Assembly (NCBI GenBank): GCA_008501735.1 | Contig: QQUF01000008.1 | Span: 62,001 to 126,000 of the forward strand | Length of the DNA stretch: 64,000 nt | Direction: 5' to 3' | From: Calditrichota bacterium | Lineage (GTDB): Bacteria > CLD3 | Shown: piece by piece, positions 20,289 to 29,781 of the stretch | Layout: each line of letters starts with the position of its first letter | Position numbering within the stretch: the stretch's first letter is position 1 | Position numbers and translations under genes: made by a program | Notes under the pieces: model-generated | The model's input: only the letters and a program-made list of their open reading frames with translations | What the model was told of the DNA's origin: nothing | The model's database searches: none

Positions 20289-21635
20289 ATGTTTAAACTG
20301 AACTACTACATTTTTAAAGAACACGTCGGACCTTTCTTTTTGGCTTTGATGATAATTTTGTTCTTGCTCATCGTAAATTTTCTAATTGGAAATGTAGAAA
20401 GACTTCTTGGAAAAGGCTTACCAATTCAAGTCATTCTCGAATTTATCGTTTTGAATTTGGCTTGGATTGTTGCACTCGTAATTCCAATGGCAGTTTTGGT
20501 TGCGACTTTGATTGCTTTCGGAAGACTTTCCGCAGACAACGAAATTATTGCTCTCAAAAGTGCAGGTGTAAATCTTTACAAACTTGCAATTTTCCCTGTT
20601 TGTGCTGCCGGAATTTTATGTTCGGTTTTGATTTATTTTAACAACTACATTGTTCCCGACGCAAATTACAGAGCTTCTACTTTGAAAAGAGACATTATCA
20701 AAAAGAAACCAACTTTGTTAATCGAAGAGGGTGTTTTCGTTGACGAAATTCCGAACCACAAAATTCTCGTTCGCAGAAAGCCCGAAGACCCGAATTCCCC
20801 AAAAATCTTCGATATTTTGATTTATGATTTCTCAGACCCAAAGTATCAAACCACAATTTCAGCCGAAGAAGGTGAACTAACTCTTTCACAAGACGGCGAA
20901 TTTATGGTAATGACTCTTTTCAATGGCGAACTCACAAAAGTTGAGACGAGAAATTTTGAAGAACTTCAAGTAATGAAATTCGACAAACAAGTAATTACAA
21001 TGGAGGCAGATTTGGGTTTTAGCAGAGATGACGAATATAAAAGACAAAAGAGAGACGTTGAAAAAACACTTGACGAACTAAAAGCAACCATTGAAGCCGA
21101 CAACAAAATTATTTCAAACACTCAAAACGACATTAACAAAATCACGAAAACAGTTTTTGATTTTTACTACGAGGAAAGTGAAAATCCACCAATGTCAGTA
21201 AAATCTTTAGCAAAAACTAAAAACGATTCTTTGAGTTATTACAAATTTATTGGGAATGTGAACCGAAGGAATCTGAGCAAAGTCGGTTACTTACTCAAAA
21301 AAATATCAAACAAAGAAGAAAACATAAAACAAAATCTTGTTGAGATTCACAAAAAATACGCCATTCCTGTCGCCTGCATTGTTTTCGTTTTACTCGGAAT
21401 GCCACTTGGAATTCTCTTTCGTAAAAGTGGAATTTCTGTCGGTGGAAGTATCAGTATGCTTTTCTTTTTAGTTTACTACGCATTTCTGATTCAAGGAGAA
21501 GCACTTGCCGACAAAGGAATAATTTCGCCGTTTTTGGGAATGTGGAGTGCAAACATAATTCTTACACTTCTTGGATTCTTCCTGCTTTTTTGGGCAATTG
21601 AAGAAAAGAAAGTCACTTTCAGGAAAGCTCAATGA
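20289..21635 (+). CDS. lptF: LptF-like LPS-export permease (YjgP/YjgQ family)
   Basis: This is one of the two permease subunits of the LptB2FG ABC transporter that extracts lipopolysaccharide from the inner membrane. Six membrane segments are predicted, three at each end. A periplasmic jellyroll-like domain lies between them (about residues 120-350), with an inserted charged coiled segment (KRDVEKTLDELKATIEADNK...). The motif ADNEIIALKSAGVNLYKL is the conserved coupling helix. At 448 residues it is longer than E. coli LptF because of the coiled insertion. It overlaps lptG by 4 bases. I chose LptF over LptG from gene order, so that distinction is tentative. Confidence 0.85.
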   Translation: MFKLNYYIFKEHVGPFFLALMIILFLLIVNFLIGNVERLLGKGLPIQVILEFIVLNLAWIVALVIPMAVLVATLIAFGRLSADNEIIALKSAGVNLYKLAIFPVCAAGILCSVLIYFNNYIVPDANYRASTLKRDIIKKKPTLLIEEGVFVDEIPNHKILVRRKPEDPNSPKIFDILIYDFSDPKYQTTISAEEGELTLSQDGEFMVMTLFNGELTKVETRNFEELQVMKFDKQVITMEADLGFSRDDEYKRQKRDVEKTLDELKATIEADNKIISNTQNDINKITKTVFDFYYEESENPPMSVKSLAKTKNDSLSYYKFIGNVNRRNLSKVGYLLKKISNKEENIKQNLVEIHKKYAIPVACIVFVLLGMPLGILFRKSGISVGGSISMLFFLVYYAFLIQGEALADKGIISPFLGMWSANIILTLLGFFLLFWAIEEKKVTFRKAQ

Positions 21636-22708
21636 GAAAACTCACTTGGTACATTGCCAAAAAATACTGCCTTTTTACACTGTTTTCTCTCGTTGGCTTT
21701 TGGACGATTTTCGTCACTGTGAATCTCATCGAAACAGGCAAAAAATTTATTCAAAATGATACTCCTGTTGACATTATTTTAGATTATTACATTCACTTTA
21801 CACCACAAATTATTTCTCTTTCGGTTCCAGTTGCTTGTTTGCTTGGAGCACTTTTTACAATGGGCGGACTTTCCAAACACAACGAAGTTACTGCAATGCG
21901 TGCTTGTGGAATTAGTGTTTTGAGAATAATTGCTCCTGTTATGACAATTGCCTTTTTGTGTTCAATCGGACTTTTCTTTTTTACTGAAATTATTGTTCCT
22001 GAAAATAATCGCAAGAAAGACGAAATTCGTGAAGTTTACGTGAAAGGCAGAAGGGCTTTAGACGAAATCCGCGAAAGGCATTTGACAATTCAAGTTGGAA
22101 ATCACAAGACTCTTTACATTTCAAATTTCGATTTCAAAAAAAATATCGGATTCAAAGCCTACGTTTTACAAGTCAAAGACGACAAAGCACTTTACCGAAT
22201 TGATGCTCAACAAGTCGCTTACAAAGATTCTGCTTGGGTTTTTTCAAACGGTAAAATCCGTTACTTTACTGAAGAAGGAACAAAGTTTGAAACTTTCACC
22301 AAAACTGATACAATCCAAATCGGTGTAAACCCTGACGACTTGATTTTAAGTCGTTACAGACCGGAAACTCTTGGTTACTTTGAACTTGAAAGTTTCATTG
22401 ACAGACTCAAAGGTCTTGGTGCAAATTTCAAGAAATGGGAAGTTGAGAAATTCCATAAACTTTCATTTCCATTTGCTGTTGTGATTGTAACACTTGTTGG
22501 AGTTTCTCTTGGAACAGAAAGGCACAAAAGCGGTGCTGCAAGAAGTTTCATTTTTAGCTTCTTTTTTCTCTTTGTTTACTACGGAGTTTTTAAATTCACA
22601 AAAATTGCCGGAGTAACGGGCGACCTCTCGGAAATAGTTTCAGCTTGGATTGCAAACGTAATCTTTTTCATTTTCGGCTTAGGATTTTACCAAAAAGCAA
22701 AACGCTAA
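21632..22708 (+). CDS. lptG: LptG-like LPS-export permease (YjgP/YjgQ family)
   Basis: This 358-residue partner permease has the six-helix arrangement and the coupling motif KHNEVTAMRACGISVLRI. A periplasmic domain lies at about residues 100-250, followed by GVSLGTERHKSGAARSF (the conserved cytosolic loop) and three C-terminal helices. It would form LptB2FG with the preceding gene, moving LPS toward LptC/LptA. LptB is not in the window. The ATG overlaps the lptF stop (ATGA), and lptF ends in TGA. Confidence 0.88.
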   Translation: MRKLTWYIAKKYCLFTLFSLVGFWTIFVTVNLIETGKKFIQNDTPVDIILDYYIHFTPQIISLSVPVACLLGALFTMGGLSKHNEVTAMRACGISVLRIIAPVMTIAFLCSIGLFFFTEIIVPENNRKKDEIREVYVKGRRALDEIRERHLTIQVGNHKTLYISNFDFKKNIGFKAYVLQVKDDKALYRIDAQQVAYKDSAWVFSNGKIRYFTEEGTKFETFTKTDTIQIGVNPDDLILSRYRPETLGYFELESFIDRLKGLGANFKKWEVEKFHKLSFPFAVVIVTLVGVSLGTERHKSGAARSFIFSFFFLFVYYGVFKFTKIAGVTGDLSEIVSAWIANVIFFIFGLGFYQKAKR

Positions 22709-22725
22709 AATTTTAAAGGAAAAAT

Positions 22726-23556
22726 TTGCAACAAACTAAAAATACAATTTTCGTTTTAATTCTCATTTTTTGCTTCTTGAATCCACTTCAAGCTCAGGAA
22801 CAAGAAATTATCAAACCAAAAGAATTTGTTGTAACACCTCTAAAAAGTCTTAGCAAACCTTTTAGCTTCAAAAAATCTTTTCTAACAAAAGCAGGCTTAC
22901 TAACTACGGGAGTGATTCTTTCATCTTTTGCAGACAAGTGGATTCAAGAAAGAGCTCAAGACAGTCAAAAAAGTCTTCTTCAAAAAGTTTCTGACAAAAC
23001 TACGATTCTTGGAAATCATTTTATTGCTCCGGGAATTGCAGCGGTTTTGGCTGTTTCAGGGTTGGTAACAAGCGACAACTACTTAGCAAACACAGGAATT
23101 CAAGCTATTCAATCTTTCGGATTAGGTATGACTTTTACACTTGGAACAAAGATGCTTTTTGGCAGACACAGACCTTACGACGAAGAAACAAACGAAATTT
23201 TCAACGATAACAAAAGTTTTAAAGGAATCGGTTGGCACGAAAAAGTAAACCAATCTTTTGCTTCAGGACATTCAACAGCTGTTTGGTCGGTTTCAACAGT
23301 CATTGCTAACCGTTACGACAACGTTTTTGTGAAGTCAGTTGCTTACTCAACAGCAAGCCTTGTTTCGTTGACAAGACTTTACAACAACAATCATTGGTTT
23401 TCTGACGTTGTCGCAGGAAGCTTAATAGGTTACTTTAGTGCTTTGTCAATTTTGGAAATTAACGAAAATGATGTCTTTAACAAAAGTGGCTTAACTGTTT
23501 TACCAACTCAGGTTTCAACCAATTCTTTTGGCTTACAAGCAGTTTTGAGATTTTAG
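22726..23556 (+). CDS. PAP2-family membrane-associated phosphatase
   Basis: This 276-residue protein carries the three phosphatidic-acid phosphatase motifs: KMLFGRHRP (KX6RP type), SFASGHSTAVW with the catalytic-site histidine, and TRLYNNNHWFSDV (SRX5HX3D type, with Thr for Ser). The signal peptide ends near LQAQ, so the enzyme faces the periplasm. Substrates of such enzymes include undecaprenyl diphosphate, phosphatidylglycerol phosphate and lipid A; which applies here is unknown. The start is TTG at 22726 behind AAAGGA. It sits 17 bases after lptG and before the Omp85-like gene, so a role in envelope lipid dephosphorylation is likely. Confidence 0.88.
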   Translation: MQQTKNTIFVLILIFCFLNPLQAQEQEIIKPKEFVVTPLKSLSKPFSFKKSFLTKAGLLTTGVILSSFADKWIQERAQDSQKSLLQKVSDKTTILGNHFIAPGIAAVLAVSGLVTSDNYLANTGIQAIQSFGLGMTFTLGTKMLFGRHRPYDEETNEIFNDNKSFKGIGWHEKVNQSFASGHSTAVWSVSTVIANRYDNVFVKSVAYSTASLVSLTRLYNNNHWFSDVVAGSLIGYFSALSILEINENDVFNKSGLTVLPTQVSTNSFGLQAVLRF

Positions 23557-23701: not shown

Positions 23702-24961
23702 ATGAAACAGACTTTACTAATAAAATTTCTGGCTTTAATTCTGACTTTCGGAATTTGTAATTTCGCATTTTCTCAAAGTGCGGAAAACGATTCCACCGAA
23801 ACAAGTTTCCCCGAGAAAGTTAAAAATCGTTCTACTTTTGAAAGCATTTTAGCTTTTCCCGGGAAAGCAATTTACTTCCCTTTTGACGTTAGTTTTAAAA
23901 TTCTTGAACAATCCTATCACTACTTGTTTGACCTCAGAGCAATTGAAAGATTCAAAGAATTCTTGACAACAGAAGACGGAAGAATCGGAATTCGCCCAAC
24001 TGCAAATTCTCTTAATGGTTATGGAGCAAGGCTCTTTCTTTACAACGTTTTGGGAAAGACAAAGATTAACGCAACCACTCAATTTGGAGAGTTCCCAAAA
24101 GCAAATTCAACTTTCGAAATAGCTTTTCCAAAAGACTCCTTTCTAAATGGCTCACTGACATTTTTTAATGAATACAACTACAGACCAAACGCTAATTTTT
24201 TCGGAATTGGGAACAGAACCAATCACGCAGATTCGACATTTTTGGAAGAACAATTCAAAAGCACTTTGATTTATAAATTTGACTTGAGCAAAAACTTCTC
24301 CGTTGGTTTGGACTTTGGTTATGACTTAATCGAAATCGGAAAAGGTGAAACTCCGAACACCCCACAAATTTCAAGACATTACACAGGAGTTGGAGAAAGA
24401 GCTCATTTTCTCGAGACAGCTTCGTTTTTAAAAGCAAATTTTACCGATAACTCAGGAAGCCCAAATGCAGGAAATAATTCTTTGCTAAGATTCGGCTACA
24501 ACCAATCTGTTGACGACGACAAATTCAGCAATTTACTTTTTGCATTCACAACAGAGCAATTCTTAGAAATTTACCACAAAAGAACAATTTCTCTAAAACT
24601 CGGAACAGATTGGCGAATTAAAGCAGGAGCAGGAGATGAAATTGCTTTTTACAACTTAGCTTTTGTAGGTGGAAATGAAATTCTAAGAGGTTTTGACAAC
24701 AAAAGGTTTAGAGACAGAGGAAACGCTTTCGGGATTTTCACTTACAAGTTTCCTGTTTGGAAAGTCATTGATGGAGTTATTTTTTACGAAAGAGGAAGAG
24801 TTTTTAAAAATGTTGATGATTTTTCTTTCAATAATTGGAAAGAATCTTTTGGAGGTGGTTTGAATTTCTGGACAGAAAACGGAGTCGTTTTTCAACTGAC
24901 AGCCTCTCACAGCAGAGAAAATTCTTTTCTCTTTGCCTTCAATTTCAATGCAGGAATTTAG
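23702..24961 (+). CDS. Omp85/BamA-like outer-membrane beta-barrel
   Basis: This 419-residue protein has a signal peptide (residues 1-24, ending AFSQ) and a C-terminal barrel of the bacterial surface-antigen type. The tell-tale segment is EILRGFDNKRFRDRGNAFG, with the RGF motif of lid loop 6 in Omp85 proteins, and the chain ends in alternating aromatic beta strands. POTRA domains are not evident in the roughly 120 residues before the barrel, so this is a short Omp85 relative and not BamA itself. It lies 145 bases after the PAP2 gene and 3 bases before the kinase-like lipoprotein gene, so the three may form one envelope module. Confidence 0.8.
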   Translation: MKQTLLIKFLALILTFGICNFAFSQSAENDSTETSFPEKVKNRSTFESILAFPGKAIYFPFDVSFKILEQSYHYLFDLRAIERFKEFLTTEDGRIGIRPTANSLNGYGARLFLYNVLGKTKINATTQFGEFPKANSTFEIAFPKDSFLNGSLTFFNEYNYRPNANFFGIGNRTNHADSTFLEEQFKSTLIYKFDLSKNFSVGLDFGYDLIEIGKGETPNTPQISRHYTGVGERAHFLETASFLKANFTDNSGSPNAGNNSLLRFGYNQSVDDDKFSNLLFAFTTEQFLEIYHKRTISLKLGTDWRIKAGAGDEIAFYNLAFVGGNEILRGFDNKRFRDRGNAFGIFTYKFPVWKVIDGVIFYERGRVFKNVDDFSFNNWKESFGGGLNFWTENGVVFQLTASHSRENSFLFAFNFNAGI

Positions 24962-24964
24962 CCA

Positions 24965-26578
24965 ATGAGAATAGCTATTTTAATTTTTGCCTTTCTTACC
25001 TTAGGTTGCTCTTCAAACAGAAAATTTGTAGCCCAAAAGCCAATTCCTTCCGACACGAGAAAAATTGAAAAACCATTTTCTCGGGACCCTTCACTTTCAG
25101 TTGAAATTATCGATAAAACCTTCAACTACCAACTCAAGCAAATCTTTGATTTTCCACGTAGTTTTAGAAAATTAGTTGGGGAACCTTACCAATCTTTGAA
25201 TGTGGACAATTTCGATAACGTTCCAAATTCCTCTTGGTTCACAAACAGAAACGGATTTCAGGAAATGTCTCTCGAAGAAATCCGAAAAGGTCCGAATAAA
25301 GCTCTTGGTCCTGACACAACAGGAACTTGGAAAATTGTTTCGGTAAAAACAGCAGGAGTTACTCCGGGCTTCACAATCGTTGACTCAAAAGGTGCAAAAT
25401 ACGTTATAAAATTTGACCCTTTACGATTTCCCGAACTTGCAAGCGGAACGGAAGTTGTTGGAACAAAATTAATGTTTGCCGCAGGTTACAATGTTCCTGA
25501 AAATTACATCGCTTACTTAAATCCTGAAAAATTGGTCTTGAGTCCTGAAGCGAAATTAAACTACAAATTCGACAAAAAAAGACCAATGACTCAAGAAGAC
25601 TTAGAAGTGATTCTCAAAAAAGTGAACCCAAATGGTGAAAAGAGAATTCGCGTTTTGGCAAGTCGTTTTCTTAGTGGAATTCCAATTGGACCTTGGACTT
25701 ACACAGGAACTCGTAAAGACGATCCGAACGATATTTTTTCACACGAAAACAGGCGTGAAATTCGTGGACTCTACATTTTATGTTCTTGGATTAATCACGC
25801 CGATATGAAAGAAGAAAATACTTTGGATATGTTTGATGAGGGCTTTGTAAAACATTACTTGATTGACTTTGGTGCTTCAATGGGTTCAAACAGTACAAAT
25901 GTTAGCAATCCGCGAAGAGGACAAGCGAACAGCTTAGATTTGAAACATTCCTTAATTCGTTTGGCAACTCTTGGTTTGTACGTCTTTCCTTATGAAAGAG
26001 CTGAGCAGAAAATCATTTACCCTTCTGTTGGATACTTAGAGAATGACCTTTTTCACCCGAATAAATGGAATCCGATGTATCCTGTTCCTGCTTTTGAAAA
26101 TCTAACAAAACAAGATGCATTTTGGGGAACAAAAATCGTAACATCTTTTTCTGACGAGCAAATTCAAGCAGCGGTTTTAGAAGGGCAATTCTCAGACCCG
26201 AATGCTGCAAAATATTTAGAAAAGTTTTTGATTGAACGTCGAGATAAAATTGGAAATTATTGGTTTTCAAAAATCAATCCACTTGACAATTTTGAAATCG
26301 AAAATGAAACTTTACATTTTGAAGACCTTGCATTTTCAAGAGGTTTTGCTAAATCTGAAAAGACTAACTACAAAGTTGAAGTTTTTAATCAGAAGAAGTT
26401 GATTTCTTCTCAAGAAACAAAAGAAACAAGTTTCAGACTTCTCCAAAAACTAAAAGGACAAGAAAAAATTACTCTTTCAATTCTTACCAAGAGAAAAAAA
26501 CTAGAAGTTGAGCCAATCAGAGTTTATTTAAAACTGGAAAACTCTGATTGGAAAATTTTAGGAATTGAGAGAGAATAG
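24965..26578 (+). CDS. Lipoprotein with protein/PI-kinase-like motifs
   Basis: This 537-residue protein has a clear lipobox (LTLGC, Cys15). The central part shows an ordered set of kinase-fold motifs: KYVIKFDP (Lys149, like the ATP-binding VAIK lysine), GTEVVGTKLM (Glu163, like the helix-C glutamate), WINHADMKEENTL (Asp280 and Asn285, matching HxD-x4-N) and YLIDFGAS (Asp301-Phe-Gly, the DFG magnesium motif). This pattern is that of the protein kinase/PI-kinase/HipA/FAM20 superfamily, with the spacing of HRDxxxxN and DFG. The residues look catalytic and not decayed. A lipid-anchored, extracytoplasmic kinase-like protein beside an Omp85-like barrel is unusual. The assignment comes from motifs only and needs profile or structure support. 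It converges on the TonB receptor gene with 3 bases between them. Confidence 0.65.
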   Translation: MRIAILIFAFLTLGCSSNRKFVAQKPIPSDTRKIEKPFSRDPSLSVEIIDKTFNYQLKQIFDFPRSFRKLVGEPYQSLNVDNFDNVPNSSWFTNRNGFQEMSLEEIRKGPNKALGPDTTGTWKIVSVKTAGVTPGFTIVDSKGAKYVIKFDPLRFPELASGTEVVGTKLMFAAGYNVPENYIAYLNPEKLVLSPEAKLNYKFDKKRPMTQEDLEVILKKVNPNGEKRIRVLASRFLSGIPIGPWTYTGTRKDDPNDIFSHENRREIRGLYILCSWINHADMKEENTLDMFDEGFVKHYLIDFGASMGSNSTNVSNPRRGQANSLDLKHSLIRLATLGLYVFPYERAEQKIIYPSVGYLENDLFHPNKWNPMYPVPAFENLTKQDAFWGTKIVTSFSDEQIQAAVLEGQFSDPNAAKYLEKFLIERRDKIGNYWFSKINPLDNFEIENETLHFEDLAFSRGFAKSEKTNYKVEVFNQKKLISSQETKETSFRLLQKLKGQEKITLSILTKRKKLEVEPIRVYLKLENSDWKILGIERE

Positions 26579-26581
26579 GAA

Positions 26582-28762
26582 TCAGAAATAAACCTTGTAC
26601 AAAACCTTAAAATTCCTTCCTGATTCAGGCATTACTGATTTTACTTTTGAAAGATGTTTTCTGTAAGTTTCGTTGGTCAAATTTTCGATTCCAAAATCTA
26701 AAGAATGAGCCAAATTCCTAAACTTGAAAACGTAGCTTCCGAAAAGATTGTAAACTAAAAACCCCTTTGTTTTTTGTTCAAACTCTCCGAGCCTGTCTTG
26801 TTTGTCGGCAAATTTTACTCCTCCACCAAAGGCGAAAAGGTCTTTTTTGTAACGCAAATTCAGCTTGCCACTCAAAGGAGGCATTTCAGGGATTGCTTCG
26901 TCAAGGTCTGTCAAATTACCTTTTACAAAACTTAAAGAGCCGTCAGCGAAAATTCTTGGTAAAATCTGCCAATCAAATCCAAACTCAAAACCTTGCATCA
27001 AAGCTTTTAAACCCGTGTACTGGTAAATTGGTAAAAGTGTTCGCCAACTTGTATCACCTGTTGCTTTTGCAAAAGTAAAGTTTGAAATTTCGTTTCTAAA
27101 AACTGTTGCCTCCAAAAAGCCTCTTTCATTTTCAAACTTCAAAAATGTTTCTGAGCCAAATCCATTCTCAGTTTTTAAATCAGAATTCCCAACTTCAAAA
27201 GAGTAAGCCGCCAAATGAGGACCTTCCGAAAAAAGTTCCTCTAAAGTTGGTGCTCTAAATGTTTTGGTCAAAATTACACCTGAGGAAATTCCCGAATCAA
27301 ATTTGTAAGTTCCTTCAAATGCTCCTGAGAAGCCACCAAAATTTCTGTTACGAATTTCACCAACATTTTTTGCTTCAACTTGTGAACTTGGGTTCACTTG
27401 ACGAAAATCAAATCTTGTTGAACCTCCTAAAGTAACTTTTCCGAAAATTGCATTTTGGTGAACGAAACCCGCAAAAGTTTTTTCAATTGTTTCGGGAGTA
27501 GAAGAAAGACCGCCTGACGAATAATCCCGAATTTCACTCCAAAAGCCTAAAGTTCCGTTTCGTAAAATTTCATTTTCTTTAAGATGAATTTTCCCTGAAA
27601 GATTGTAAGTAAAAACACTAAAACTAATTCCAACTAAACCATCTCCTTCAATTTCTTCGTGCTTGTAATCAGAAAAATTGTATTTCAATTCAATGTTTTT
27701 TGCAAACTCAAAATTTGGTTTAAAGTCAGTTTTTGTTTCAAAATGTTTTCGTTCAACTTTGATTCCAACTCCATTTGGGTGAGCTCCAATAAAACCTCCT
27801 GGAATCCCATAATCTGATTTGTAAAAACCTCCTGAAGCACCGAAAATATTTTTAGACTGAAACCAAGAGATTCCCAAATTAGTGTTTTCAGTTTCGATGT
27901 TAGTGTTTTTCAATTTTCCGATTGGAGTCGAAACATCTTGTGCATTTCTTAGGCTTCCGTCAAATCTCACAGCAAAATCTTGGAGCGGAAAAAGTAGGTT
28001 TAAACTTCCCACAAAACCTGAATTCACCGACTCAGCTTGTAGGCTTGAAACGGCGTGAAATTCGTCAACTCTTTGAATCGGAATTTTTTCACTGACGACG
28101 TTAATTACTCCTCCGAGAGTGTTTGAACCAAAAAGAATCGCTTTTGCTCCACGAATGACTTCTATTTTTTGTGCGTTAATTGGTTCAACGGCAACAGCGT
28201 GGTCTGCGGAAGTTGCACTCAAATCGCCAGTTCTTCCTCCATCTTCGAGAAGCAAAAGTCTGTCTCCGCTCAAACCACGTAAAACAGGACGTGCTGGAGC
28301 TGGTCCCATTGAACGCATTTCAATTCCGGGTTCAGAAGTTACAGTTTCGGCGATTGTTGAGCCAAGATTTTGCCGAAGCTGCGAACCTGAAACTTCAATC
28401 GCAGATTTTGTAACTGAAAGTTCATTTTCTTCCGCAGAGATGAAAACTTCTTCAACCTTTGTTACAGTCGGAGTTAGCAAAATTTTAAGATTCGTCGAAT
28501 CATTAAAATCAATTTGAAATTCTTTTTCTTCGTAACCAATTCTATAAAATTTTAAGGTATAATTTTGACTTCTTAGGTTTTCAAAAACAAAAATCCCTTC
28601 TTTATCTGAAATAACTGCAAAATTTTTTTCTTTCAAAAATATTTGCACATCTTCAACTGGAAGTTTGCTTTCAAAATCTAAGACTTTCCCTTTAAGCAAA
28701 CCTTTTGCAAAGTTTGGGGTAAAAAGAAAAATTACCAAAACTAAACTGAGTATCTCTCGCAT
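26582..28762 (-). CDS. TonB-dependent receptor, ZnuD-like
   Basis: This 726-residue outer-membrane receptor has a signal peptide, an N-terminal carboxypeptidase-regulatory-like domain (GKVLDFESKLPVEDVQIFL..., residues 23-105), a plug (about 110-230) and a 22-strand barrel ending in ...YKVYF. The plug segment GLSGDRLLLLEDGGRTGDLS followed by SADHAVAVEPINA resembles the zinc receptor ZnuD and relatives. The preceding gene encodes an Asp/His-rich lipoprotein and the one before it a His/Cys-rich protein, so zinc (less likely copper or nickel) is the probable cargo. A terminator-like hairpin lies directly upstream, so read-through or a local promoter would set expression. Confidence 0.85.
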   Translation of the reverse strand: MREILSLVLVIFLFTPNFAKGLLKGKVLDFESKLPVEDVQIFLKEKNFAVISDKEGIFVFENLRSQNYTLKFYRIGYEEKEFQIDFNDSTNLKILLTPTVTKVEEVFISAEENELSVTKSAIEVSGSQLRQNLGSTIAETVTSEPGIEMRSMGPAPARPVLRGLSGDRLLLLEDGGRTGDLSATSADHAVAVEPINAQKIEVIRGAKAILFGSNTLGGVINVVSEKIPIQRVDEFHAVSSLQAESVNSGFVGSLNLLFPLQDFAVRFDGSLRNAQDVSTPIGKLKNTNIETENTNLGISWFQSKNIFGASGGFYKSDYGIPGGFIGAHPNGVGIKVERKHFETKTDFKPNFEFAKNIELKYNFSDYKHEEIEGDGLVGISFSVFTYNLSGKIHLKENEILRNGTLGFWSEIRDYSSGGLSSTPETIEKTFAGFVHQNAIFGKVTLGGSTRFDFRQVNPSSQVEAKNVGEIRNRNFGGFSGAFEGTYKFDSGISSGVILTKTFRAPTLEELFSEGPHLAAYSFEVGNSDLKTENGFGSETFLKFENERGFLEATVFRNEISNFTFAKATGDTSWRTLLPIYQYTGLKALMQGFEFGFDWQILPRIFADGSLSFVKGNLTDLDEAIPEMPPLSGKLNLRYKKDLFAFGGGVKFADKQDRLGEFEQKTKGFLVYNLFGSYVFKFRNLAHSLDFGIENLTNETYRKHLSKVKSVMPESGRNFKVLYKVYF

Positions 28763-28780
28763 TTTTTTACTTTCAAGAAA

Positions 28781-28810
28781 AACCTGAAAGACAAAAGTGC
28801 CTTTCAGGTT
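28781..28810 (-). terminator. Terminator/attenuator between lipoprotein and receptor genes
   Basis: A 10-bp perfect stem AACCTGAAAG / CTTTCAGGTT is followed on the minus strand by TTTTTC. It lies just after the lipoprotein stop and only 18 bases before the receptor ATG, so partial read-through would set the receptor level. Confidence 0.8.
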
Positions 28811-28816
28811 AAGACT

Positions 28817-29290
28817 TTAATTTTGGACAATTACTGGAATTTCTTTTGAGGTAAAATCCGAATGACCGTTGTGGAGCAATTTTATAGTCAAAGTTGCTGT
28901 CCCGACTTGCTTTCCTTCAATGTGAAAAGCCAAATGAGTTTCTTCTGAAGAATGATTGTGTTCTCCATCTTCAGCTTCTACAACGAAAATATTTGTATCG
29001 GAAACAACATACTCAGGAGTAAAACCATCATCTTCGTGTGGAACAAATTCGTCTCCGTCATCATCAAGGAAAGCTAATTCTACTTCTGTTTCTGCTGTGT
29101 CTGAAATCGTTAAACTTCCGGTAACAACTCCTTCTTTGTAAGTAACAATTGTTTGTTCTTCTATTTTTAAAACAAGACCTTCTGCATCTGCGTGGTCGTG
29201 TTTCTCATCATTGTCATCATTACTACAAGCAATGAAAGAAATTGAAAAAATTGCAAATAAAAACTTAATTAAAGTATTGTATTTAAACAT
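28817..29290 (-). CDS. Asp/His-rich lipoprotein, probable metal-binding
   Basis: This 157-residue protein has a lipobox (FIACS, Cys22). It carries three acidic/histidine clusters suited to divalent metals: NDDNDEKHDHADAE just after the anchor, DDDGDEFVPHEDD in the middle and EDGEHNHSSEETH near residue 113. Between them are beta-strand-rich segments resembling an immunoglobulin-like fold. It lies between the His/Cys-rich protein gene and the ZnuD-like receptor on the same strand. I infer a periplasmic or surface metal relay for the receptor. Confidence 0.75.
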   Translation of the reverse strand: MFKYNTLIKFLFAIFSISFIACSNDDNDEKHDHADAEGLVLKIEEQTIVTYKEGVVTGSLTISDTAETEVELAFLDDDGDEFVPHEDDGFTPEYVVSDTNIFVVEAEDGEHNHSSEETHLAFHIEGKQVGTATLTIKLLHNGHSDFTSKEIPVIVQN

Positions 29291-29329
29291 TTTAGATACC
29301 TTTTGTGCTTTATGTGTTAAAAATTATTT

Positions 29330-29352
29330 CACTAAAAGACCTACTTTTAGTG
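29330..29352. promoter_or_regulatory. Inverted repeat upstream of the metal lipoprotein
   Basis: CACTAAAAG and CTTTTAGTG form a perfect 9-bp inverted repeat with a 5-base spacer, 40 bases upstream of the lipoprotein ATG and 64 bases after the preceding gene. It could be an operator for a metal regulator or a weak terminator hairpin. No long T-run follows on the minus strand. Confidence 0.4.
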
Positions 29353-29415
29353 GGAGAAAAAAATTTGCGATACCTTAAGAAAAAATCCTTAAAGTTCACT
29401 TTTGAAAAGAAATTT

Positions 29416-29781
29416 TTAACTAAAAAAAGGCGGAGAGCGAGAAGACTTTTGGATTAAAAAGTAAAGGGGAGAATTTGTAGAAAAGTGAGAACTTCGTTTC
29501 TCTTTTTGAAGGGCAAAAAAGAAATGTTTCTGGGGAATTTCAAAAAACTGAAAAGAGGAAAAAAAGCAACTTATACAATCCTCTTCATCGGAATGCTCGT
29601 GTGGTTTCTCATCAAAGCAAACATTATTGCAATGTTCGAGTTGCTCAAGTTCGTGTGAGTGAGACTTTCCTTTGACATTTGAGTGGTCGTGTACAAACTC
29701 AAAACTTACAATTAGTGGTAAGTAAGCTAAAAGAAGTAAAATGGATATGAATTTTCTGAAGTTGTTTTTCATTGTTTCCAA
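29416..29781 (-). CDS. Small His/Cys-rich exported protein
   Basis: The product is 121 residues with an N-terminal hydrophobic segment (about 9-27). It then has a histidine-rich region (FVHDHSNVKGKSHSHELEQL) followed by HCNNVCFDEKPHEHSDEEDC and CF, and a basic hydrophobic tail. The His/Cys pattern resembles small membrane-associated proteins found next to metal receptors (DUF2946-like), although I cannot confirm the family. It is first in the minus-strand run His-rich protein, lipoprotein, ZnuD-like receptor. Two start codons are possible (MET at 29781 and MKN at 29772); both give the same mature protein. Confidence 0.65.
   Translation of the reverse strand: METMKNNFRKFISILLLLAYLPLIVSFEFVHDHSNVKGKSHSHELEQLEHCNNVCFDEKPHEHSDEEDCISCFFSSFQFFEIPQKHFFFALQKEKRSSHFSTNSPLYFLIQKSSRSPPFFS

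Follow-up and report, generated by a model that had tools for sequence, protein, structure and literature searches.

The window, the 64,000-nucleotide stretch of Calditrichota DNA analysed here, carries an intact open reading frame for a predicted kinase-fold lipoprotein (hereafter the window protein), preceded on the same strand by the gene of an outer-membrane-type barrel. The genes and features are listed below in window positions.

22726..23556, + strand: PAP2-family phosphatase gene (PF01569, E 5.7e-19), 145 bp before the barrel gene
23702..24961, + strand: partner gene, encoding an Omp85-superfamily barrel without POTRA (419 aa; from AlphaFold2 and Foldseek), ending 3 bp before the kinase-like gene
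24965..26578, + strand: predicted kinase-fold lipoprotein gene, type A member of a new family (ATG start, 537 aa, open reading frame intact)
24965..25009, + strand: putative lipoprotein signal MRIAILIFAFLTLG-C15 (LTLGC15; predicted by pattern only)
25346..25372, + strand: Gly-loop equivalent, K128-x2-G131-x3-G135-F136
25409..25411, + strand: codon of Lys149, the strand-3 (VIK; YVIK) lysine
25451..25453, + strand: codon of Glu163, the helix-C glutamate
25712..25765, + strand: family signature RKDDPNDIFSHENRREIR, R250 to R267, adjoining the catalytic loop
25796..25819, + strand: catalytic-loop motif H278-A-D280-M-K282-E-E-N285 (NHADMKEEN), with D280 and N285 conserved
25862..25873, + strand: IDFG motif (LIDFG) with conserved D301, whose metal-binding role is inferred from the motif
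26282..26575, + strand: C-terminal beta-rich, sandwich-like domain, residues 440-537 (eight strands in the AlphaFold2 model)

As a single query, the window protein had no Pfam, NCBIfam or PDB sequence match. A first-pass annotation made from sequence alone had claimed a lipobox Cys15, Lys149, Glu163, Asp280-x4-Asn285 and Asp301, and all of these were found where it had placed them. It had also named conservation of the five motif residues in homologues as a check. In an alignment of 67 type A homologues (alignment A3), K149, D280, N285 and D301 were invariant (67/67 each), while position 163 was Glu in 50 sequences, Asp in 8 and neither in 9, i.e., Glu or Asp in 58/67. K/R282 was kept in 65/67, giving the D-x-K-x2-N arrangement in the style of protein kinases. 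Two features had been missed by the annotation. One is the equivalent of the Gly-loop, which lies between the first and second strands (G131 in 67/67, G135 in 66/67 and F136 in 63/67), and the other is the signature R250-x2-D253-x-N255-D256-x3-H260-x2-R263-R264-x2-R267, of which R250, D253, N255, D256, R264 and R267 were each present in 67/67 sequences and H260 and R263 each in 65/67. This charged block is family-specific and almost invariant, and no equivalent was found in a comparison with HipA_2. The ordered motif set occurred in 0/376 unrelated open reading frames of at least 350 aa and in 0/20,000 shuffles of the window protein; the same strict pattern was matched by 77/115 family open reading frames.

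An AlphaFold2 model made with 67 sequences has a kinase fold (pLDDT 94.3, pTM 0.93), although this is a prediction and not a solved structure. Strands at 122-128, 135-139 and 145-150 (the last holding Lys149), helix C at 158-173 (holding Glu163) and a C-lobe are followed by the beta-rich residues 440-537, which may form a docking module. The top six Foldseek matches in the PDB were Fam20 (Golgi casein kinase, 4kqa/4kqb, E 8e-5 to 4e-4), and the next were PI4K-IIalpha (4hne, E 5e-4), CtkA (3akl, E 9e-4), HipT (7ab3, E 3e-3) and Fam20C1. Almost all PDB matches listed by Foldseek were kinases, as were most of those from the viral library. TM-scores were modest (0.2-0.3 by query, at most 0.53 by target, for CtkA), which places the relation at the level of fold and active site and not of close kinship. 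The first-pass annotation had proposed an extracytoplasmic kinase or kinase-like binding protein, to be compared with FAM20, HipA and PI-kinase folds and to be refuted by a non-kinase fold or by homologues without the Lys, Asp and Asn. Neither refutation was met, the best matches were the folds it named or their close kin, and the proposal is supported, with kinase activity and ATP donor remaining inferences.

Profile comparisons gave only faint signals, those to HipA-type kinases being independent of the fold search and in agreement with it. A profile search of the PDB returned one weak match, of a beta-rich Fc-receptor chain to the C-terminal beta-rich domain (E 0.059). HipA_2 was matched weakly by 4/67 members and HipA_C by 2/67 (best E 0.0036), none above cut-off, and hhalign against HipA_2 proteins (E 2.6e-4, probability 42%) placed K149 opposite the HipA_2 Lys and D301 opposite the HipA_2 Asp. 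The Fam20C profile, PF06702, was matched by 0/67 members at E 0.1, and no Pfam profile match to a PI3/4-kinase domain was found in the window protein or the 67 members. A PF06702 search of 81 related genomes found no match, but the same search matched no control, so that absence is not shown. The predicted fold, together with the Lys, Asp, Asn, DFG Asp and helix-C Glu, identifies the window protein as a member of the protein kinase-like (PKL) superfamily; because it does not satisfy the domain models of either family, we place it outside the Fam20 and HipA families.

Although a first genome scan with the window protein sequence alone found no relatives, scanning the GTDB species genomes with an alignment-derived profile confirmed at least 245 relatives (single pattern), of which the best 80 were kept. 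They span more than 10 phyla, including Latescibacterota, Calditrichota, KSB1, Zixibacteria, Krumholzibacteriota, Gemmatimonadota, Acidobacteriota, Rhodothermota, Balneolota, Neomarinimicrobiota (listed as Fidelibacterota), Poribacteria and Fibrobacterota. The window's own genome holds a paralogue of 40% identity (G000:C32:131131-132780), and in the tree the window protein clusters with two Latescibacterota sequences to which it is 51-56% identical. The tree divides the family, with support of 100, into a large type A, which includes the window protein, and a smaller type B (L005-L010); both types occur together in several genomes. In type B, a deep subfamily, the Lys and the Asp of the DFG position are retained and the helix-C Glu (E163) is replaced by Ser or Ala; one member (L009) has Asn for D280 and one has His for N285. 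Given the loss of the helix-C Glu in type B and the change at D280 in L009, some family members may be pseudokinases. By analogy with Fam20A and Fam20C, and only as speculation, type B could serve type A as a regulatory or pseudokinase partner. The window protein is covered by no Pfam or NCBIfam model, and the family was previously unnamed. Our literature search found no report of it or of a kinase-NTT-Omp85 link; a mention in Gradowski 2020, a review of bacterial kinase-like families, is not excluded. Separately, HipA_2 kinases without an evident export signal were seen in same-class genomes that lack the exported kinase-like family (L121, L122, L123 and L124).

An export-type N-terminus is typical of the family. 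A lipobox-like rule was passed by 48/67 relatives; on inspection by eye two or three others (L035, L080 and L091) also resemble lipoproteins, and many of the remaining relatives, chiefly from Acidobacteriota, have an N-terminal signal of the ordinary secretion type. In the window protein the residue at +2 after Cys15 is Ser, not Asp, and Asp was found at +2 in 0/48 lipobox-like relatives, which by the E. coli rule favours sorting to the outer membrane. The window protein is thus likely a lipoprotein anchored through Cys15 and probably resident in the outer membrane, with the anchor predicted from pattern and the location inferred.

The most constant companion of the family is the barrel. The AlphaFold2 model of the partner (pLDDT 89.9) has 16 strands and N-terminal helices and no POTRA domain; its best Foldseek structural matches were BamA/TamA (E about 1e-11), the loop-6 RG[FY] motif (R329-G330-[F/Y]331) is conserved, and related barrels carry PF01103. 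A gene for this type of barrel lay immediately upstream on the same strand of 103/116 family genes, and most of the 13 exceptions were at contig ends. No barrel-kinase fusion was seen among the family loci surveyed. The PAP2 gene at 22726..23556 may belong to the same unit; a scan for promoters and terminators from PAP2 to the kinase-like gene gave sites no more numerous than chance.

Phosphatases and transporters recur around the family genes. Metallophosphoesterases are found repeatedly, with a lipobox-like signal in 9/22, PAP2 genes were present in 11 related loci, and Na/Pi-cotransporter and PhoD-like genes also recur. As an observation apart, calcineurin-like phosphoesterases, several of them lipobox-bearing, lie directly downstream of the kinase-like gene in many loci (e.g., L036:7662-8909). 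In the window itself, an LptF/LptG-like permease pair and the PAP2 gene precede the barrel on the same strand (20289-23556; LptG-PAP2 gap of 17 bp). A role tied to LptF/LptG is not pressed, as these are outside the 25 commonest neighbour families and the adjacency is no family trait as surveyed. Beyond the kinase-like gene, at 26582-29781, an opposite-strand TonB-dependent receptor lies beside small His/Asp-rich exported proteins and resembles a metal-uptake locus.

The absence of ATP outside the cytoplasm is believed to restrict phosphorylation there in bacteria. The first-pass annotation had raised the same puzzle, aptly, and genes for TLC/NTT-type ATP/ADP exchangers, linked to and co-occurring with the family, are a candidate answer. 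The commonest downstream neighbours of the family genes are TLC/NTT transporters (PF03219, above cut-off), standalone or fused to HEAT and cyclic-nucleotide-binding domains. A gene matching the TLC profile was found within about 6 kb in 38/80 loci, and in 31/55 loci of at least 9 kb; by our own estimate, from one to four such genes per several-Mb genome, chance linkage would be about one percent or less. For loci without a TLC gene, a copy was present elsewhere in 35/36 carrier genomes. In the phylum of G053, TLC was found in 14/15 carriers of the family and 9/67 non-carriers (Fisher p 5e-9, not corrected for relatedness), and in 60 mixed genomes it was found in 3/3 carriers and 6/57 non-carriers. 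Two carrier genomes (G105 and G154) show no TLC, perhaps through incomplete assembly.

The arrangement of these genes varies. In the locus of the closest relative of the window protein (L059) the row reads barrel, kinase, barrel, kinase, TLC, metallophosphoesterase, TLC. The exchanger genes of the genome that contains the window are on a different contig from it; contig C1 carries TLC, a POTRA-containing Omp85 and TLC-HEAT consecutively (L119:8331-13844), apart from both kinase-like genes. The TLC neighbours retain several of the charged positions seen in more typical NTTs, for which a 1.2-Mb genome was the source. Two standalone copies matched the NCBIfam model TIGR00769 (E 9e-23 and 4e-18) below its 387-bit cut-off, and the copy at L042:7645-9021 had no TIGR00769 match. 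The neighbours likely exchange nucleotides, but this has not been shown, and because they fall below the NCBI cut-off for NTP/NDP exchangers their substrate is not settled.

Shown here are a predicted kinase fold, the conservation of its motifs, an export-type N-terminus, the barrel pairing, and the linkage to and co-occurrence with exchanger genes. We lean, by a modest margin, towards a phosphotransferase of the outer membrane or periplasm that docks to the barrel and receives ATP through an NTT-type exchanger; its catalysis, ATP donor, exchanger direction and outer-membrane site are all inferred. In this model the window protein would belong to the Fam20/HipA/PI4-kinase branch of the kinase fold and act, once exported, as a phosphotransferase, held by the Cys15 lipid, probably in the outer membrane, and made and kept together with the POTRA-less barrel. 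Following the standard kinase scheme, Lys149 and Glu163 would position the phosphates of the nucleotide, Asp301 and Asn285 would hold the metal, and Asp280 would activate the acceptor, with the invariant R250-R267 segment proposed to bind substrate. Periplasmic ATP would be supplied by a TLC/NTT-type exchanger (in this genome, from contig C1), an antiporter across the inner membrane passing ATP out and ADP in, a direction inferred because the gradients of a free-living cell would favour such exchange. The reaction would be undone or counterbalanced by PAP2 phosphatases and lipoprotein metallophosphoesterases, and the kinase-like gene and an adjoining calcineurin-like phosphoesterase may form an extracytoplasmic kinase/phosphatase pair. 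The acceptor is inferred to be, most likely, an envelope lipid, a lipid-linked glycan or a surface protein; PAP2 and, in this window only, LptF/LptG give a slight lean towards lipid or LPS.

A bolder reading would be a dedicated Gram-negative extracytoplasmic system, in which an NTT exchanger delivers ATP to a Fam20/HipA-like lipoprotein kinase seated on a POTRA-less Omp85-type barrel; this kinase would phosphorylate an acceptor in the envelope or at the surface, and lipoprotein phosphatases would be its counterpart. We hold this fuller version only tentatively and would, on balance, not yet endorse it. The family is new and probably constitutes a new extracytoplasmic phosphorylation module, with the activity itself inferred.

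Of the alternatives, an indirect TLC link survives best and remains possible. Here the kinase is active and TLC merely shares an envelope neighbourhood, carrying another substrate or taking up nucleotides released by the phosphatases. The TLC neighbours fall under the NCBI cut-off, about half of the loci have no TLC within 6 kb, and TLC occurs without the kinase in 9/67 genomes, all of which suit this explanation. Against it, the co-occurrence is almost one-directional, with carriers nearly always TLC-positive, and the neighbours retain several NTT charged positions. A second alternative, which we consider unlikely, is a pseudokinase that transfers no phosphate but binds a nucleotide or other ligand and serves the Omp85-type barrel as a structural or regulatory partner. 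Near-universal barrel pairing would suit a plug or a partner in assembly, type B and 9/67 type A sequences have lost the helix-C Glu, and an exported pseudokinase is already known in Fam20A (PMC7948968). However, none of the four key residues varies among the 67 divergent type A sequences, which is unusual in dead kinases, and exchanger co-occurrence suggests nucleotide turnover. Less likely still is other extracytoplasmic chemistry (AMP transfer, glutamylation, or a non-ATP donor such as polyphosphate or a lipid pyrophosphate), for which speak the kinase-fold precedents SelO and SidJ (PMC10870513), a periplasm thought to be ATP-poor and nearby PAP2 genes that suit a lipid-phosphate theme, but against which the canonical motifs (Lys, D-x-K-x2-N and DFG) are preserved without exception in the window protein, whereas SelO and SidJ are pseudokinases, and the ATP/ADP-exchanger linkage points to ATP. 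The last two alternatives are still open because no activity has been measured.

What is new is the surrounding system, a conserved and unusual context of barrel pairing, TLC linkage and co-occurrence, and recurrent genes for PAP2 enzymes and lipoprotein metallophosphoesterases. The occurrence in more than 10 phyla of a kinase-fold family whose active site is intact, tied to a barrel by gene order and to an exchanger by co-occurrence, makes the question of phosphorylation outside the cytoplasm directly testable, and cultured carriers exist (Salinibacter, Salinivenus and Fodinibius). It suggests exported bacterial counterparts of atypical secreted kinases like Fam20. It also offers free-living bacteria a possible use for their NTT-HEAT transporters. 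Such NTT-HEAT(-cNBD) proteins were described by Major et al. 2017 (PMC5381601), who left their function open; the domain order of our neighbours (TLC, TLC-HEAT, cNMP-binding) is the same as in their NTT-HEAT and NTT-HEAT-cNBD, and the relevant sections of that paper do not mention a link to a kinase.

Other known systems share parts of this arrangement. The spore-coat kinase CotH (PMC7821199) is likewise a bacterial atypical kinase and phosphorylates a surface-layer protein, but it belongs to the spore coat, has no lipid anchor, barrel or ATP exchanger, and was absent among matches to the window protein. By fold search PI4K-IIalpha (4hne) belongs to the same branch of atypical kinases; PI3/PI4 kinases, however, are cytoplasmic eukaryotic lipid kinases with no detected sequence similarity to the window protein. 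HipA, HipT, CtkA and HipA_2 are alike in fold, in the weak HipA_2 profile matches and in the placement of K149 and D301, but HipA-type toxins are cytoplasmic and paired with an antitoxin, whereas the new family is exported, paired with a barrel and of much longer chains; the neighbour of the kinase-like gene is an Omp85-type barrel and not a HipB-like antitoxin. Fam20 (Golgi casein kinase, Fam20C) is the best PDB fold match, is likewise an exported, non-cytoplasmic kinase fold and has the Asp pair at the catalytic-loop and DFG positions. Identity to it is only about 10%, however; the C-terminal beta domain and the R250-R267 signature are absent from Fam20, and the window protein is a predicted bacterial lipoprotein with an outer-membrane barrel partner. 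That partner shares the 16-strand barrel and loop-6 RG[FY] of the Omp85 superfamily (BamA, TamA) but differs from BamA/TamA in having N-terminal helices in place of POTRA, and in the loci seen it is almost always paired with a kinase-fold protein.
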